A stretch of 11,045 nucleotides of DNA, taken from an uncultured Caldimicrobium sp. (lineage in GTDB: Bacteria > Desulfobacterota > Thermodesulfobacteria > Thermodesulfobacteriales > Thermodesulfobacteriaceae). The notes under the pieces were generated by a model. The model was given only the letters and a program-made list of their open reading frames with translations. It ran no database searches and was not told the origin of the DNA. Positions 49-2,082 of the stretch are shown here, one piece after another; within the stretch, counting starts at the first letter, position 1; each line of letters starts with the position of its first letter. Where the stretch lies: assembly GCA_938091475.1 (NCBI GenBank), contig CALLJI010000194.1, forward strand, positions 1 to 11,045, written 5' to 3'. The translations under genes and the position numbers were made by a program.

Positions 49-618
49 TTAAGTTTTTGGCTTCAAAAAAATTAGTTTTGTTTCTCCATAGATTTTACTA
101 TTTATTATTTCAAATTTTTCTTGAGGTACATTAAGAGGGAATGAGGCCTTCTCTTCCACTATCAAAAGGGTCTCTTTTTGCAGAAAGGAGTGAGGAATCT
201 CCTTTAGAGTTTTTTCTGCAAGACCCTTTTCATAAGTTGGAGTAATGAAGATAAGATGAAAGCCCTTAAAGTTTTCACCAAGGTGCTTGCTGATCTTAGA
301 AATCTCTTCTGGAAGCCTGAGCTTTAAGATTCTGCTATTATCCATCAAATTTAATTTTTCCAAATTTTTGTGGATAATCTTTAAGCTTAAAGGACTAAAA
401 TCTACAAAAATTACATAGTTTGCCCCCCTTGAGAGGGCCTCAATTCCTAAGGCTCCTGTTCCAGCAAAAAGATCAAGGATACACCATCCCTCTAAATTGT
501 GCCCTATAATATCAAAAAGGGCCTTTCTAATTCTACTTCTTAATGGTCTGATAGAGAATTCCTTTGTAGGAGGGGTGTAAAGTTTTTGACCTTTAAATTT
601 ACCGCCTGTAATTTTCAA
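49..618 (-). CDS. rsmD: 16S rRNA (guanine-N2)-methyltransferase RsmD-like, altered catalytic motif
   Basis: Resembles RsmD, the SAM-dependent enzyme that makes m2G966 in 16S rRNA during 30S assembly. The 189 residues match the usual family length. Visible features are the N-terminal 'ITGGKFKGQKL' and 'RPLRSRIRKALFDII' (about residues 24-38), the SAM-binding loop LDLFAGTGALGIEAL (48-62), the acidic residue after the second strand (VDFS, 72-75), and the typical C-terminal 'YGETKLIFLK'. The odd point is motif IV: the family has (D/N)PP(F/Y), but residues 126-129 read TPTY, so the catalytic acid or amide is a threonine. The start is TTG, overlapping the speE stop as TTGA; only a weak GGAG lies about 13 bases upstream, so translation probably depends on coupling. 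Family assignment is firm; activity is uncertain. Confidence 0.9.
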   Translation of the reverse strand: MKITGGKFKGQKLYTPPTKEFSIRPLRSRIRKALFDIIGHNLEGWCILDLFAGTGALGIEALSRGANYVIFVDFSPLSLKIIHKNLEKLNLMDNSRILKLRLPEEISKISKHLGENFKGFHLIFITPTYEKGLAEKTLKEIPHSFLQKETLLIVEEKASFPLNVPQEKFEIINSKIYGETKLIFLKPKT

Positions 619-1451
619 GGATTATTTGAGGTCTCCAAGAGATTTAGCCAATTAGCAGAGAGGGAAAAATAATAGGGATTTAATTGAGGGTGATAGTATT
701 TTCCATAATAGGTTTGAAGAGGTTGAATCCAGGGTTTTTCTTCTTTTGAAGCTATCAAAAAGGCTATCTCTTCACCATAACAAGGAACATAGGTGCGGAT
801 GACTTTGACATAGGGGAAGACTTTTTTAATTACTGGATATGCCTCTTTTAAAACCTTAGGGAAATAGATAGGAAGGCTGGCCTGCTGGATGAAAACTCCA
901 AAGGGCTTTAAAACTCTAAAACTTTCTTTATAAAACTCTTCTGTATAAAGACTTTTGGCAGGACCTACAGGGTCTGTGCAATCTACAATGAGTAGATCAA
1001 AACTTTCACTCATACTCTCTTTAAGGCCCATCAGACCATCTTTGATTATAAAATCAACTCTTGAATCGTTATAATCACCGCTAATATTATAAAAATATTT
1101 CTGAGAGAGCTCAAAAACTAATTTATCAATTTCAAATTGAAGGATTTTTTTTATAGAAGGTATTTTTTGAAGTTCCCTTAGAACACCTCCATCCCCTCCA
1201 CCGATAATGATGACCTCCTCTGGAGGGGATGGAAGAAGACTTGCAGGCAAAAGAGTAATAGTTTCGTGGTAGATATACTCGTCTTTCTCAGTAAACTGCA
1301 CAATGCCATCTAAAACTAAAAAGTATCCCCAAGAGGGATTTTTAAGTATTTGAATTTTTTGTATGGCGCGCTCTTCAAAAACTAATTCAACAAGATAGCT
1401 ATGTCCGAAGTCCTTAAAGATTTTCTCGCGCCACCAAAATTGACCAGTCAA
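615..1451 (-). CDS. speE: Spermidine synthase family aminopropyltransferase
   Basis: Transfers the aminopropyl group of decarboxylated SAM to a diamine (putrescine, or agmatine/cadaverine in some thermophiles) in the cytosol. With the start chosen here it has 278 residues, normal for SpeE. Motifs: LDGIVQ then DEYIYHE (about 47-63), the glycine-rich IIGGGDGGVLRE (about 82-93), and DCTDPVGPA with the catalytic Asp (about 157-165). The acceptor cannot be read from sequence. Start choice: an in-frame TTG at 1463 is possible, but the TTG at 1449-1451 has GGAGG five bases upstream and overlaps the upstream stop as TTGA, the same arrangement as at the next gene, so I prefer it. Its substrate normally comes from SpeD, whose neighbour homologue here looks unable to form a pyruvoyl cofactor. 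Confidence 0.92.
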   Translation of the reverse strand: MTGQFWWREKIFKDFGHSYLVELVFEERAIQKIQILKNPSWGYFLVLDGIVQFTEKDEYIYHETITLLPASLLPSPPEEVIIIGGGDGGVLRELQKIPSIKKILQFEIDKLVFELSQKYFYNISGDYNDSRVDFIIKDGLMGLKESMSESFDLLIVDCTDPVGPAKSLYTEEFYKESFRVLKPFGVFIQQASLPIYFPKVLKEAYPVIKKVFPYVKVIRTYVPCYGEEIAFLIASKEEKPWIQPLQTYYGKYYHPQLNPYYFSLSANWLNLLETSNNP

Positions 1452-1897
1452 GTTTCCCTCCAATCAGTTTGAGTTAAGCCTCTTGCAATTTCTGCGATAC
1501 ACACCTTTTCAGGTTGAAATTTTTCTTGCAACCCTTGCAAAATGGCATAAGCTTTTTCTTTACAGTCTGCAATGATATCGATAGCAGAATACCCCTTTTC
1601 TGGCCAGGTATGTATATAAATATGAGCTTGACCTGAATTTACTTGAGCTGAGACTCCAAAGGGCTGAAATTGATAGCTAATGGCTCTAATATTTTCTTTA
1701 TTTTCCCGATTTTCCTGGCTATTTAGAGCATAAAGAAGAAACTCTTCTACCTTTTTAGCTTCCGCTAAGAGTTCAAAGGGGGAATTCCAAAATTCCACTA
1801 CTAAATGATAACTCCAAATACATCGTTTTTGGGCACCTTGCTGGAAAGGGATGAGTTCAAAATTTTCAATTAAGCAGTTAGACTGAAGACCCCTCAT
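1448..1897 (-). CDS. SpeD-like (AdoMet decarboxylase family) protein lacking the pyruvoyl-forming serine
   Basis: Homologous to bacterial class 1b S-adenosylmethionine decarboxylase, a proenzyme that cleaves itself at Glu-Ser so the serine becomes the catalytic pyruvoyl group. HLVVEF (31-36), FGVS (80-83) and HIYIHTWPEKGYSAIDI (92-108) align without gaps to the family. In that alignment the Glu-Ser-His of active enzymes is Gln90-Ala91-His92, so the cleavage serine is absent. The residues corresponding to Ser55 and His68 of the Thermotoga enzyme are kept (Ser83, His96), while the position of catalytic Cys83 is Asp111, with a Cys one residue later. The 149 residues are slightly longer than usual because of a 24-residue N-terminal stretch and an insert at about 58-70. 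ATG start with a very good Shine-Dalgarno (GGAGGTGA at 1901-1908). It heads the cluster with speE and rsmD. Possibly a regulatory partner of a true SpeD elsewhere, or an unprocessed protein with another role. Confidence 0.85.
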   Translation of the reverse strand: MRGLQSNCLIENFELIPFQQGAQKRCIWSYHLVVEFWNSPFELLAEAKKVEEFLLYALNSQENRENKENIRAISYQFQPFGVSAQVNSGQAHIYIHTWPEKGYSAIDIIADCKEKAYAILQGLQEKFQPEKVCIAEIARGLTQTDWRET

Positions 1898-1910
1898 AGC
1901 TCACCTCCCC

Positions 1911-1927: not shown

Positions 1928-1955
1928 ATTTTTTGAGAATTTTTAATAAAAAAAA

Positions 1956-2029
1956 TCGGGACGGGCGGATTTGAACCGCCGACCCCCCACACCCCAAGCG
2001 GGTGCGCTTCCAGGCTGCGCTACGTCCCG
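1956..2029 (-). tRNA. tRNA-Pro(GGG)
   Basis: Folds as a complete cloverleaf: acceptor CGGGACG/CGTCCCG, D stem GCGC/GCGC, anticodon stem CCCGC/GTGGG with loop TTGGGGT (anticodon GGG, reading CCC), T stem GGCGG/CCGCC with loop TTCAAAT, and discriminator A. The C1-G72 pair is typical of bacterial proline tRNAs. CCA is not encoded. A run of eight T's directly follows the 3' end and may aid termination or processing. It is transcribed toward the SpeD-like gene, 58 bases away, so it may be the first member of that transcript. Confidence 0.96.
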
Positions 2030-2054
2030 ATTTTAAAATTAACTTAACATTTCA

Positions 2055-2082
2055 ATAATAAATAATTTTTATCCGATGTCAA
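2055..2082 (-). promoter_or_regulatory. Sigma-70-type promoter for tRNA-Pro
   Basis: On the minus strand a perfect TTGACA (2077-2082) is followed after 16 bases by TATTAT (2055-2060), five of six matches to TATAAT. The -10 box lies 25 bases before the tRNA 5' end. The speD-speE-rsmD cluster downstream has no better promoter of its own, so this one may drive the whole unit. Confidence 0.7.

Follow-up and report, generated by a model that had tools for sequence, protein, structure and literature searches.

How is the aminopropyltransferase SpeE supplied with its substrate when the decarboxylase homologue encoded beside it lacks the serine that becomes the pyruvoyl cofactor? The question is raised by an 11,045-nucleotide stretch of DNA from an uncultured Caldimicrobium sp., a thermophilic sulfur bacterium (the window; assembly GCA_938091475.1, contig CALLJI010000194.1). 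It forms contig C194 of a genome of the Caldimicrobium/Thermodesulfobacterium group that is 72% complete and in 233 contigs. The minus strand of the window carries, in order, tRNA-Pro(GGG), a homologue of the S-adenosylmethionine (AdoMet) decarboxylase SpeD, speE and an rsmD-like gene. We refer to the serine-less SpeD and its relatives as dead SpeD. Judging from sequence comparisons, dead SpeD probably serves as a partner subunit, and decay of the gene is unlikely. We put at just short of an even chance the prediction that it forms a heterodimer with a second SpeD of the same genome, here called A3, contributing half of an active site that makes decarboxylated AdoMet (dcAdoMet) for SpeE.

The window SpeD has the AdoMet_dc domain and the alpha-beta half-sandwich fold, with one half-sandwich. 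It matches PF02675 at 72.6 bits (cut-off 25) and lies below the cut-off of the AdoMet decarboxylase (AdoMetDC) equivalog TIGR03330 (68.6 versus 75.65 bits). Among solved structures the nearest in sequence is that of the Thermotoga maritima AdoMetDC mutant S63A (1tmi); T. maritima numbering is used below for positions in the family. The gene and its diagnostic residues, with family counts out of 152 sequences, are as follows.

1448..1897, minus strand: serine-less SpeD (dead subunit), 149 amino acids (aa), ATG start (open reading frame; PF02675)
1649..1669, minus strand: retained Phe77 (F49), Pro79 (P51), Gly81 (G53) and Ser83 (S55), each in 152/152
1622..1630, minus strand: Gln90-Ala91-His92 in place of T. 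maritima Glu62-Ser63-His64 (ungapped alignment)
1598..1612, minus strand: retained His96-Thr-Trp-Pro-Glu100 (H68 to E72), all five in 152/152
1565..1567, minus strand: Asp111 at the position of catalytic Cys83 (ungapped alignment)

The earlier note on this DNA had reported Gln-Ala-His at the Glu-Ser-His site, Asp111 in register with the catalytic cysteine and retained equivalents of Ser55 and His68, and all three readings hold: Ser83 and His96 correspond to Ser55 and His68, as Glu100 does to Glu72. A HMMER pairwise alignment opens a one-residue gap, after which Cys112 falls on Cys83. We rejected Cys112 as a displaced Cys83, as a cysteine occupies this next column in only 3 of the 152 family members. 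By processing site, Cys83 and equivalog score the window protein falls outside class 1b AdoMetDC, and by motif it is neither SpeDA nor SpeDC (SpeDs neofunctionalised as arginine and ornithine decarboxylases), Ser63 being absent (as in 138/152) and Cys83 likewise (152/152).

The same loss is found in relatives. When 60 relatives were searched, the protein turned up in every one of the six remaining genomes of the genus and also across the family and order, and Glu62 with Ser63, as well as Cys83, were missing from each of the 66 distinct sequences collected first. Of 956 proteins matched by a profile, the best 120 were read; they include a second clade (P0072-P0120; Dissulfurirhabdus and other relatives) with the same loss pattern. 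The final family set, drawn from the loci and these best 120 proteins, comprises 152 distinct sequences of 130 to 184 aa, identical sequences and two proteins outside this range (P0044, P0064) having been removed. Glu62 and Ser63 occur together in none of the 152 (Ser63 alone in 14, Glu62 in 7), residue 63 is alanine in 104, and Cys83 is found in none; the loss is thus neither chance nor error. The possibility of a sequence error, which relatives with serine would have pointed to, is disposed of by the 151 other distinct sequences that share the loss, none of the 14 with Ser63 having Glu62. The earlier note had also asked whether Gln-Ala is conserved among homologues: what they share is the lack of the Glu-Ser pair, with alanine prevalent at 63 and position 62 highly variable.

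Twelve positions are identical in all 152 members: F49, P51, G53, S55, H68, T69, W70, P71, E72, D79, R112 and G113. Among the 71 members less than 80% identical to one another, none of the 106 core positions varies more than position 62; position 83 ranks 92nd, and 19 of the 106 are invariant, including 49, 55, 68 and 72. Positions 56 to 67 hold no invariant site, and an alternative processing residue nearby was rejected on this ground. For comparison, 16 canonical SpeDs, picked for Pro51, all have S63, H68, E72 and C83; F49 is present in 15, E62 in 14 and S55 in 12, with threonine in the other 4. The median pairwise ratio of nonsynonymous to synonymous substitution rates (dN/dS) is 0.21 in the dead family (150 pairs; range 0.02-0.53) and 0.053 in A3 (39 pairs), indicating that the dead family is constrained, though less tightly than its partner. 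Dead SpeDs also have marks of their own. The C-terminal residue is threonine in 152/152, as part of Glu-Thr or Asp-Thr in 150/152, and a median of 30 residues precede His7, compared with 13 in A3 and 10 in other SpeDs. The overlapping ribosome site of speE (see below) is not sufficient to explain the Glu-Thr end, because members without an adjacent speE also end in Asp-Thr. Dead SpeD is a selectively maintained family.

This family has lost the residues of its own active site (Glu62, Ser63, Cys83) and has kept those that serve the opposite half (Phe49, Ser55, His68, Glu72). In eukaryotic AdoMetDC, as described in PMC1282579, the pyruvoyl serine and the cysteine lie in one half and the histidine and ribose-binding glutamate (strand 12) in the other, while prokaryotic AdoMetDCs carry the union of both residue sets and build the sandwich from two identical molecules. 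The human AdoMetDC numbering is S68, C82, S229, H243, F223 and E247, and Ser55 is given as equivalent to human Ser229 (PMC3975893). We propose that dead SpeD and A3 would pair face to face, like the two halves of the eukaryotic enzyme. A3 would supply the pyruvoyl group and the proton-donating cysteine; the dead subunit would supply a histidine and a serine to aid cleavage or catalysis, together with the adenine-contacting phenylalanine and the ribose-binding glutamate. The dcAdoMet made by this predicted heterodimer would pass to SpeE, whose gene is translationally coupled to that of the dead subunit. A further step, which we put forward tentatively as possible and on balance doubtful, is that the A3 homodimer acts on arginine and A3 paired with dead SpeD acts on AdoMet. 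The cofactor-less paralogue would then set its partner's substrate by lending half an active site, and the ratio of dead subunit to A3 would decide how flux is divided between agmatine and dcAdoMet. A structure model of dead SpeD matches human AdoMetDC in its C-terminal half; this was dropped as special support, because active prokaryotic SpeDs also align there.

Such a partner requires a second SpeD with an intact Glu-Ser, which the earlier note had suggested looking for and which is present in the same genome. The window's genome has one other SpeD, of the A3 type, on contig C7, with Glu-Ser-His, His68, Glu72 and Cys83 intact and a speB-like gene adjoining; dead SpeD (on C194) and A3 are thus separate open reading frames and not a one-chain fusion. 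In a screen of 395 genomes of the phylum the dead family was found in 34, all scoring at least 152 bits, the next score being 96; 31 of these were assigned by reading the motif, and G030, G031 and G033 by profile score only. Eight members of the lower-scoring group were read, and all eight have Ser63 and Cys83. A3 is present in all 34 carriers, and the same 34 genomes give the best A3 scores. PF02675 detects exactly two SpeDs in 33/34 carriers, and A3 is the only pyruvoyl-capable SpeD seen in 33/34; G103 has a third, divergent one. In an order-level set of 41 genomes, 37 carry dead speD, 34 of them together with A3, while G023 and G039 have neither. SpeE is present in 31/32 carriers tested (G031 and G033 lay outside the test) and norspermine is prominent in Thermodesulfobacterium thermophilum, according to PMC11107197, so carrier cells need dcAdoMet.

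The A3 proteins keep E62, S63 and C83 in 51/51, and residue 49 is tyrosine, not phenylalanine, in 51/51. Residue 72 is aspartate in 8/51, and Glu72 is present in just 7 of the 15 members that occur alone. Pro51 was not relied on as a mark of A3, since this region holds an insertion and alignments disagree (Asp versus Ala/Gly). The third SpeD of G103 was not adopted as the missing AdoMetDC, Glu-Thr-Ser replacing Glu-Ser-His. The gene for this divergent SpeD (contig C134 of G103) lies within about 3 kb of a PF02784 decarboxylase gene on the same contig, and another divergent homologue with Glu-Thr-Ser for Glu-Ser-His is found on contig C85 of G168.

The arginine step draws on the company that A3 keeps. 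Among 56 genomes with an A3 match but lacking dead SpeD, the match is the sole SpeD in 27, and 29 have two or more SpeDs; SpeE (PF17284) was not detected in 26/27 of the former and 3/29 of the latter. A3 therefore looks like an arginine-decarboxylase-type SpeD. It may decarboxylate arginine and depend on the dead subunit for activity on AdoMet, because elsewhere the type, where it is the sole SpeD, occurs mostly without SpeE. A speB-like gene follows A3 in 37/37 loci of the order and in 16/16 clade-2 carriers. The arginine-decarboxylase families SpeA, PvlArgDC and OKR were each found in 0/34 carriers, and SpeA in 0/56 A3 genomes without dead SpeD (PvlArgDC and OKR were searched in carriers only). 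Li and colleagues (PMC10407285) recognised arginine- and ornithine-decarboxylating SpeDs by a pattern in which SpeA is absent and a SpeD either lacks SpeE or is a second copy; A3 shows this occurrence pattern of SpeDA, being without SpeE, or a second SpeD, in genomes without SpeA. That paper tells AdoMetDC from arginine decarboxylase by a proline, whose position is not given in its text.

A number of observations weigh against the heterodimer, or against the division of substrates attached to it. A3 is linked to arginine by gene company alone, and this company is looser outside the carriers, where a speB-like gene is near A3 in only 12/20 A3-only loci and 8/16 loci carrying a canonical SpeD. 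The A3-only set itself includes a more distant A3 relative (135-144 bits) in 7/27 genomes, and in 4/29 genomes with two or more SpeDs the protein matching the A3 profile is a divergent SpeD encoded next to speE. The named SpeDA proteins of Li 2023 are absent from the 120 A3-profile matches listed (of 7958 in all), which are mostly nameless. One strong PF02784 match, probably LysA, is present in every carrier, and nine have more, so carriers may hold another arginine or ornithine decarboxylase. A3 could also work as a homodimer, because it keeps Ser55 and His68, plus Glu72 in 43/51. The T. maritima S55A mutant is reported still to self-process. Nor is the partnership strict: 56/90 A3 genomes lack the dead subunit, the drafts G020 and G035 of the order set have A3 without the dead gene, and 3/37 carriers of the order show no A3 (the drafts G016, G029 and G040, 90, 70 and 76% complete). 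The dead and A3 genes are neighbours in no locus read. Finally, the dead gene is kept in G187, where SpeE was not found, and is kept without an adjacent speE in 4/16 clade-2 loci.

How, then, do other explanations compare? It is unlikely, though worth setting out first, that dead SpeD binds SpeE as its partner or for dimerisation, in the manner of the AdoMetDC-like N-terminal domain of human spermine synthase, or hands dcAdoMet over to it, with A3 alone serving as the AdoMetDC. PMC11107197 lists APT01 of T. thermophilum, which may be encoded next to dead speD, among the spermidine synthases active in E. coli. A purely structural domain needs no invariant F49, S55, H68 and E72, and the four clade-2 dead genes that do not lie beside speE nevertheless keep this residue set; A3 is moreover improbable as a general AdoMetDC, since 26/27 A3-only genomes show no SpeE.

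Improbable, too, is a classical prozyme, in which dead SpeD would allosterically activate an A3 that already has AdoMetDC activity, lending it no active-site residues. Its near-universal co-occurrence with A3 fits this reading, as does the dead AdoMetDC paralogue of trypanosomes, which activates by heterodimerisation (PMC5201418). However, the trypanosome prozyme, as described, lacks active-site residues, among them the one at human F223, and all the AdoMet-binding residues compared are gone from the Leishmania one (ADL), whereas the dead family has never lost F49 or E72. The earlier note had offered a prozyme-like activator of a second SpeD among its options. The partnership with a second SpeD is supported, an intact SpeD being present in 34/34 phylum carriers and 34/37 order carriers; allosteric activation gives way to a contributed half-site, which fits better because the retained residues act across two halves.

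Another of its options was a new binding function, which dead SpeD may have. In a reading that we consider rather remote, dead SpeD would be a sensor of AdoMet, dcAdoMet or polyamines that regulates SpeE or another protein and forms no heterodimer with A3. The invariant AdoMet-contacting residues would suit a sensor, as would two features not shared with canonical and A3 SpeDs, the N-terminal extension and the C-terminal [ED]T tail, but the explanation requires an unknown target and leaves dcAdoMet synthesis in the carriers unexplained. Very improbable is the remaining option of a different cofactor, or another processing residue, in a dead SpeD that is itself an active decarboxylase. The fold and the substrate residues are retained and Ser63 is kept in 14/152, yet the option finds no support in a family where position 62 is so variable, 63 is mostly alanine (104/152), Cys83 is gone from all and no site from 56 to 67 is invariant. 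Least credible of all is a non-functional relic of an old speD-speE operon or a sequence error, for although the lesions are as expected of decay, the family forms one clade (100/99), its pairwise dN/dS (median 0.21, range 0.02-0.53) and 19/106 invariant positions among 71 divergent members speak against it, and the relaxed constraint expected of a relic is not seen. Of these readings the contributed half-site, with A3 as the pyruvoyl-bearing partner, remains the one that we prefer.

Phylogeny bears on how such a pair could have arisen. In a tree of 80 sequences (sites 62, 63 and 83 removed, 110 columns, several deep forks weak), the dead family is one clade (100/99) among the canonical class 1b SpeDs, apart from A3. 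Because of this placement, self-processing was most likely lost once, by a canonical AdoMetDC in a lineage that already held A3. Descent of dead SpeD from A3 is not supported by the tree, with its weak deep forks and 110 columns.

The remaining features of the locus, from upstream to downstream, are listed here.

2055..2082, minus strand: possible promoter TTGACA-16-TATTAT upstream of the tRNA (11/12, consensus match only)
1955..2030, minus strand: tRNA-Pro(GGG), directly upstream of dead speD
1902..1910, minus strand: ribosome site (Shine-Dalgarno, SD) of dead speD, GGGGAGGTG (sequence reading)
1456..1461, minus strand: ribosome site of speE, GGAGGG, within the last codons of dead speD
1448..1456, minus strand: C-terminal Glu-Thr plus stop of dead SpeD
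615..1451, minus strand: speE (aminopropyltransferase), probable TTG start in the speD stop (PF01564, 155.9 bits)
49..618, minus strand: rsmD-like methyltransferase downstream of speE (PF03602, 135.6 bits)

The ribosome site claimed for dead speD is indeed present, as the SD sequence at 1910-1902. The claimed coupling to speE also stands. The TTG of speE (1451-1449) overlaps the dead speD stop as TTGA, with GGAGGG at 1461-1456 before it, and the ACTTGA junction is identical in 30/30 loci, the window's own counted. For speE, the TTG at 1451-1449 is the most likely start, in place of the TTG 1463 given earlier. A 7-pair hairpin at 1911-1927 lies between the tRNA and the ribosome site of dead speD, and a T run follows it on the plus strand only.

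The upstream tRNA is a recurrent neighbour. In a survey of 31 other family loci (L118, L120, L122 and further loci of the order were left out), tRNA-Pro(GGG) lies directly upstream on the same strand in 27 (18/18 in the order, 9/13 in clade 2), 16-174 nucleotides before the first in-frame ATG, and it is kept even where speE is elsewhere. No tRNA-Pro was found in the 24 canonical or A3 loci examined (0/24). The tRNA and dead speD are possibly co-transcribed. At two loci where speE is not adjacent (L127 and L131), an opposite-strand gene neighbours dead speD or its tRNA; this gene appears to resemble a SAM hydroxide adenosyltransferase (DUF62).

Some other SpeD homologues seen along the way are also unusual. 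Candidatus Melainabacteria / Caenarcanales (L106, L108-L116) have a separate SpeD group without Glu-Ser and Cys83. Phenylalanine stands at Cys83 in 10/10, Ser55 is replaced by threonine, and F49, H68 and E72 are kept in 10/10; no speE was found in the fetched flanks. In the four of these ten loci whose neighbours were read, the gene follows one that is presumably purF-like. In a 262-aa metagenomic protein (P0121), a SpeD-like half (HTWPE) is fused to one that is A3-like (HTFPD); Glu-Ser-His and Cys are present in both, so that two SpeD types are naturally joined in one chain. Another homologue (L199, G112), which has Glu-Ser-His and Cys, lies among genes that look phage-like by eye.

Were the heterodimer borne out, the spermidine-feeding enzyme of Thermodesulfobacteriales and some neighbours would be a two-gene complex missed by annotation; some members of the dead family carry the database label 'adenosylmethionine decarboxylase'. 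Dead SpeD would be a case of a pseudoenzyme lending half an active site to its partner and perhaps also determining which substrate is used. Pseudoenzyme partners of AdoMetDC are already known as a kind, and the stand-alone bacterial form is a new variant; in open-licence papers we found no stand-alone bacterial dead SpeD, and the words 'prozyme', 'pseudoenzyme' and 'inactive' occur nowhere in the text of PMC10407285.

The known systems resemble dead SpeD in part. The trypanosomatid prozyme, such as Leishmania ADL, is likewise a dead AdoMetDC paralogue kept with one live copy, and is described as only found in trypanosomatids (PMC5201418). Unlike the half-size class 1b dead SpeD (149 aa), which keeps its substrate residues, the prozyme belongs to class 2, relieves autoinhibition and has lost them. 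Within bacteria, PMC10407285 describes a fusion of SpeD with a degraded SpeD2 in Victivallis vadensis, with a relative in Desulfobacter latus, in which a degraded SpeD accompanies an active AdoMetDC domain; E. coli regains spermidine when given the Victivallis fusion. There the copies are fused and the degraded one comes from SpeDC, whereas dead SpeD stands alone and groups with canonical SpeD, and in its carriers, unlike Victivallis, it is the live copy (A3) that looks substrate-shifted. The SpeDA/SpeDC genomes of the same paper have two SpeD paralogues, some by speB, and no canonical SpeA or SpeC, a description that A3 fits; SpeDA and SpeDC keep the pyruvoyl serine and the cysteine, and the window SpeD keeps neither. 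The N-terminal AdoMetDC-like domain of human spermine synthase is fused and associated with dimerisation, in contrast to the stand-alone dead SpeD. The closest analogy to the proposed arrangement is the C-terminal half of eukaryotic class 2 AdoMetDC, which, like dead SpeD, does not cleave, and which gives its histidine and ribose-binding glutamate to the pyruvoyl half (PMC1282579). In the eukaryotic enzyme the halves lie in one chain, whereas here the proposed halves are two bacterial genes, the dead one grouping with class 1b; if the proposal is correct, the pair would be the unfused bacterial counterpart of eukaryotic AdoMetDC and would bear on the origin of class 2.
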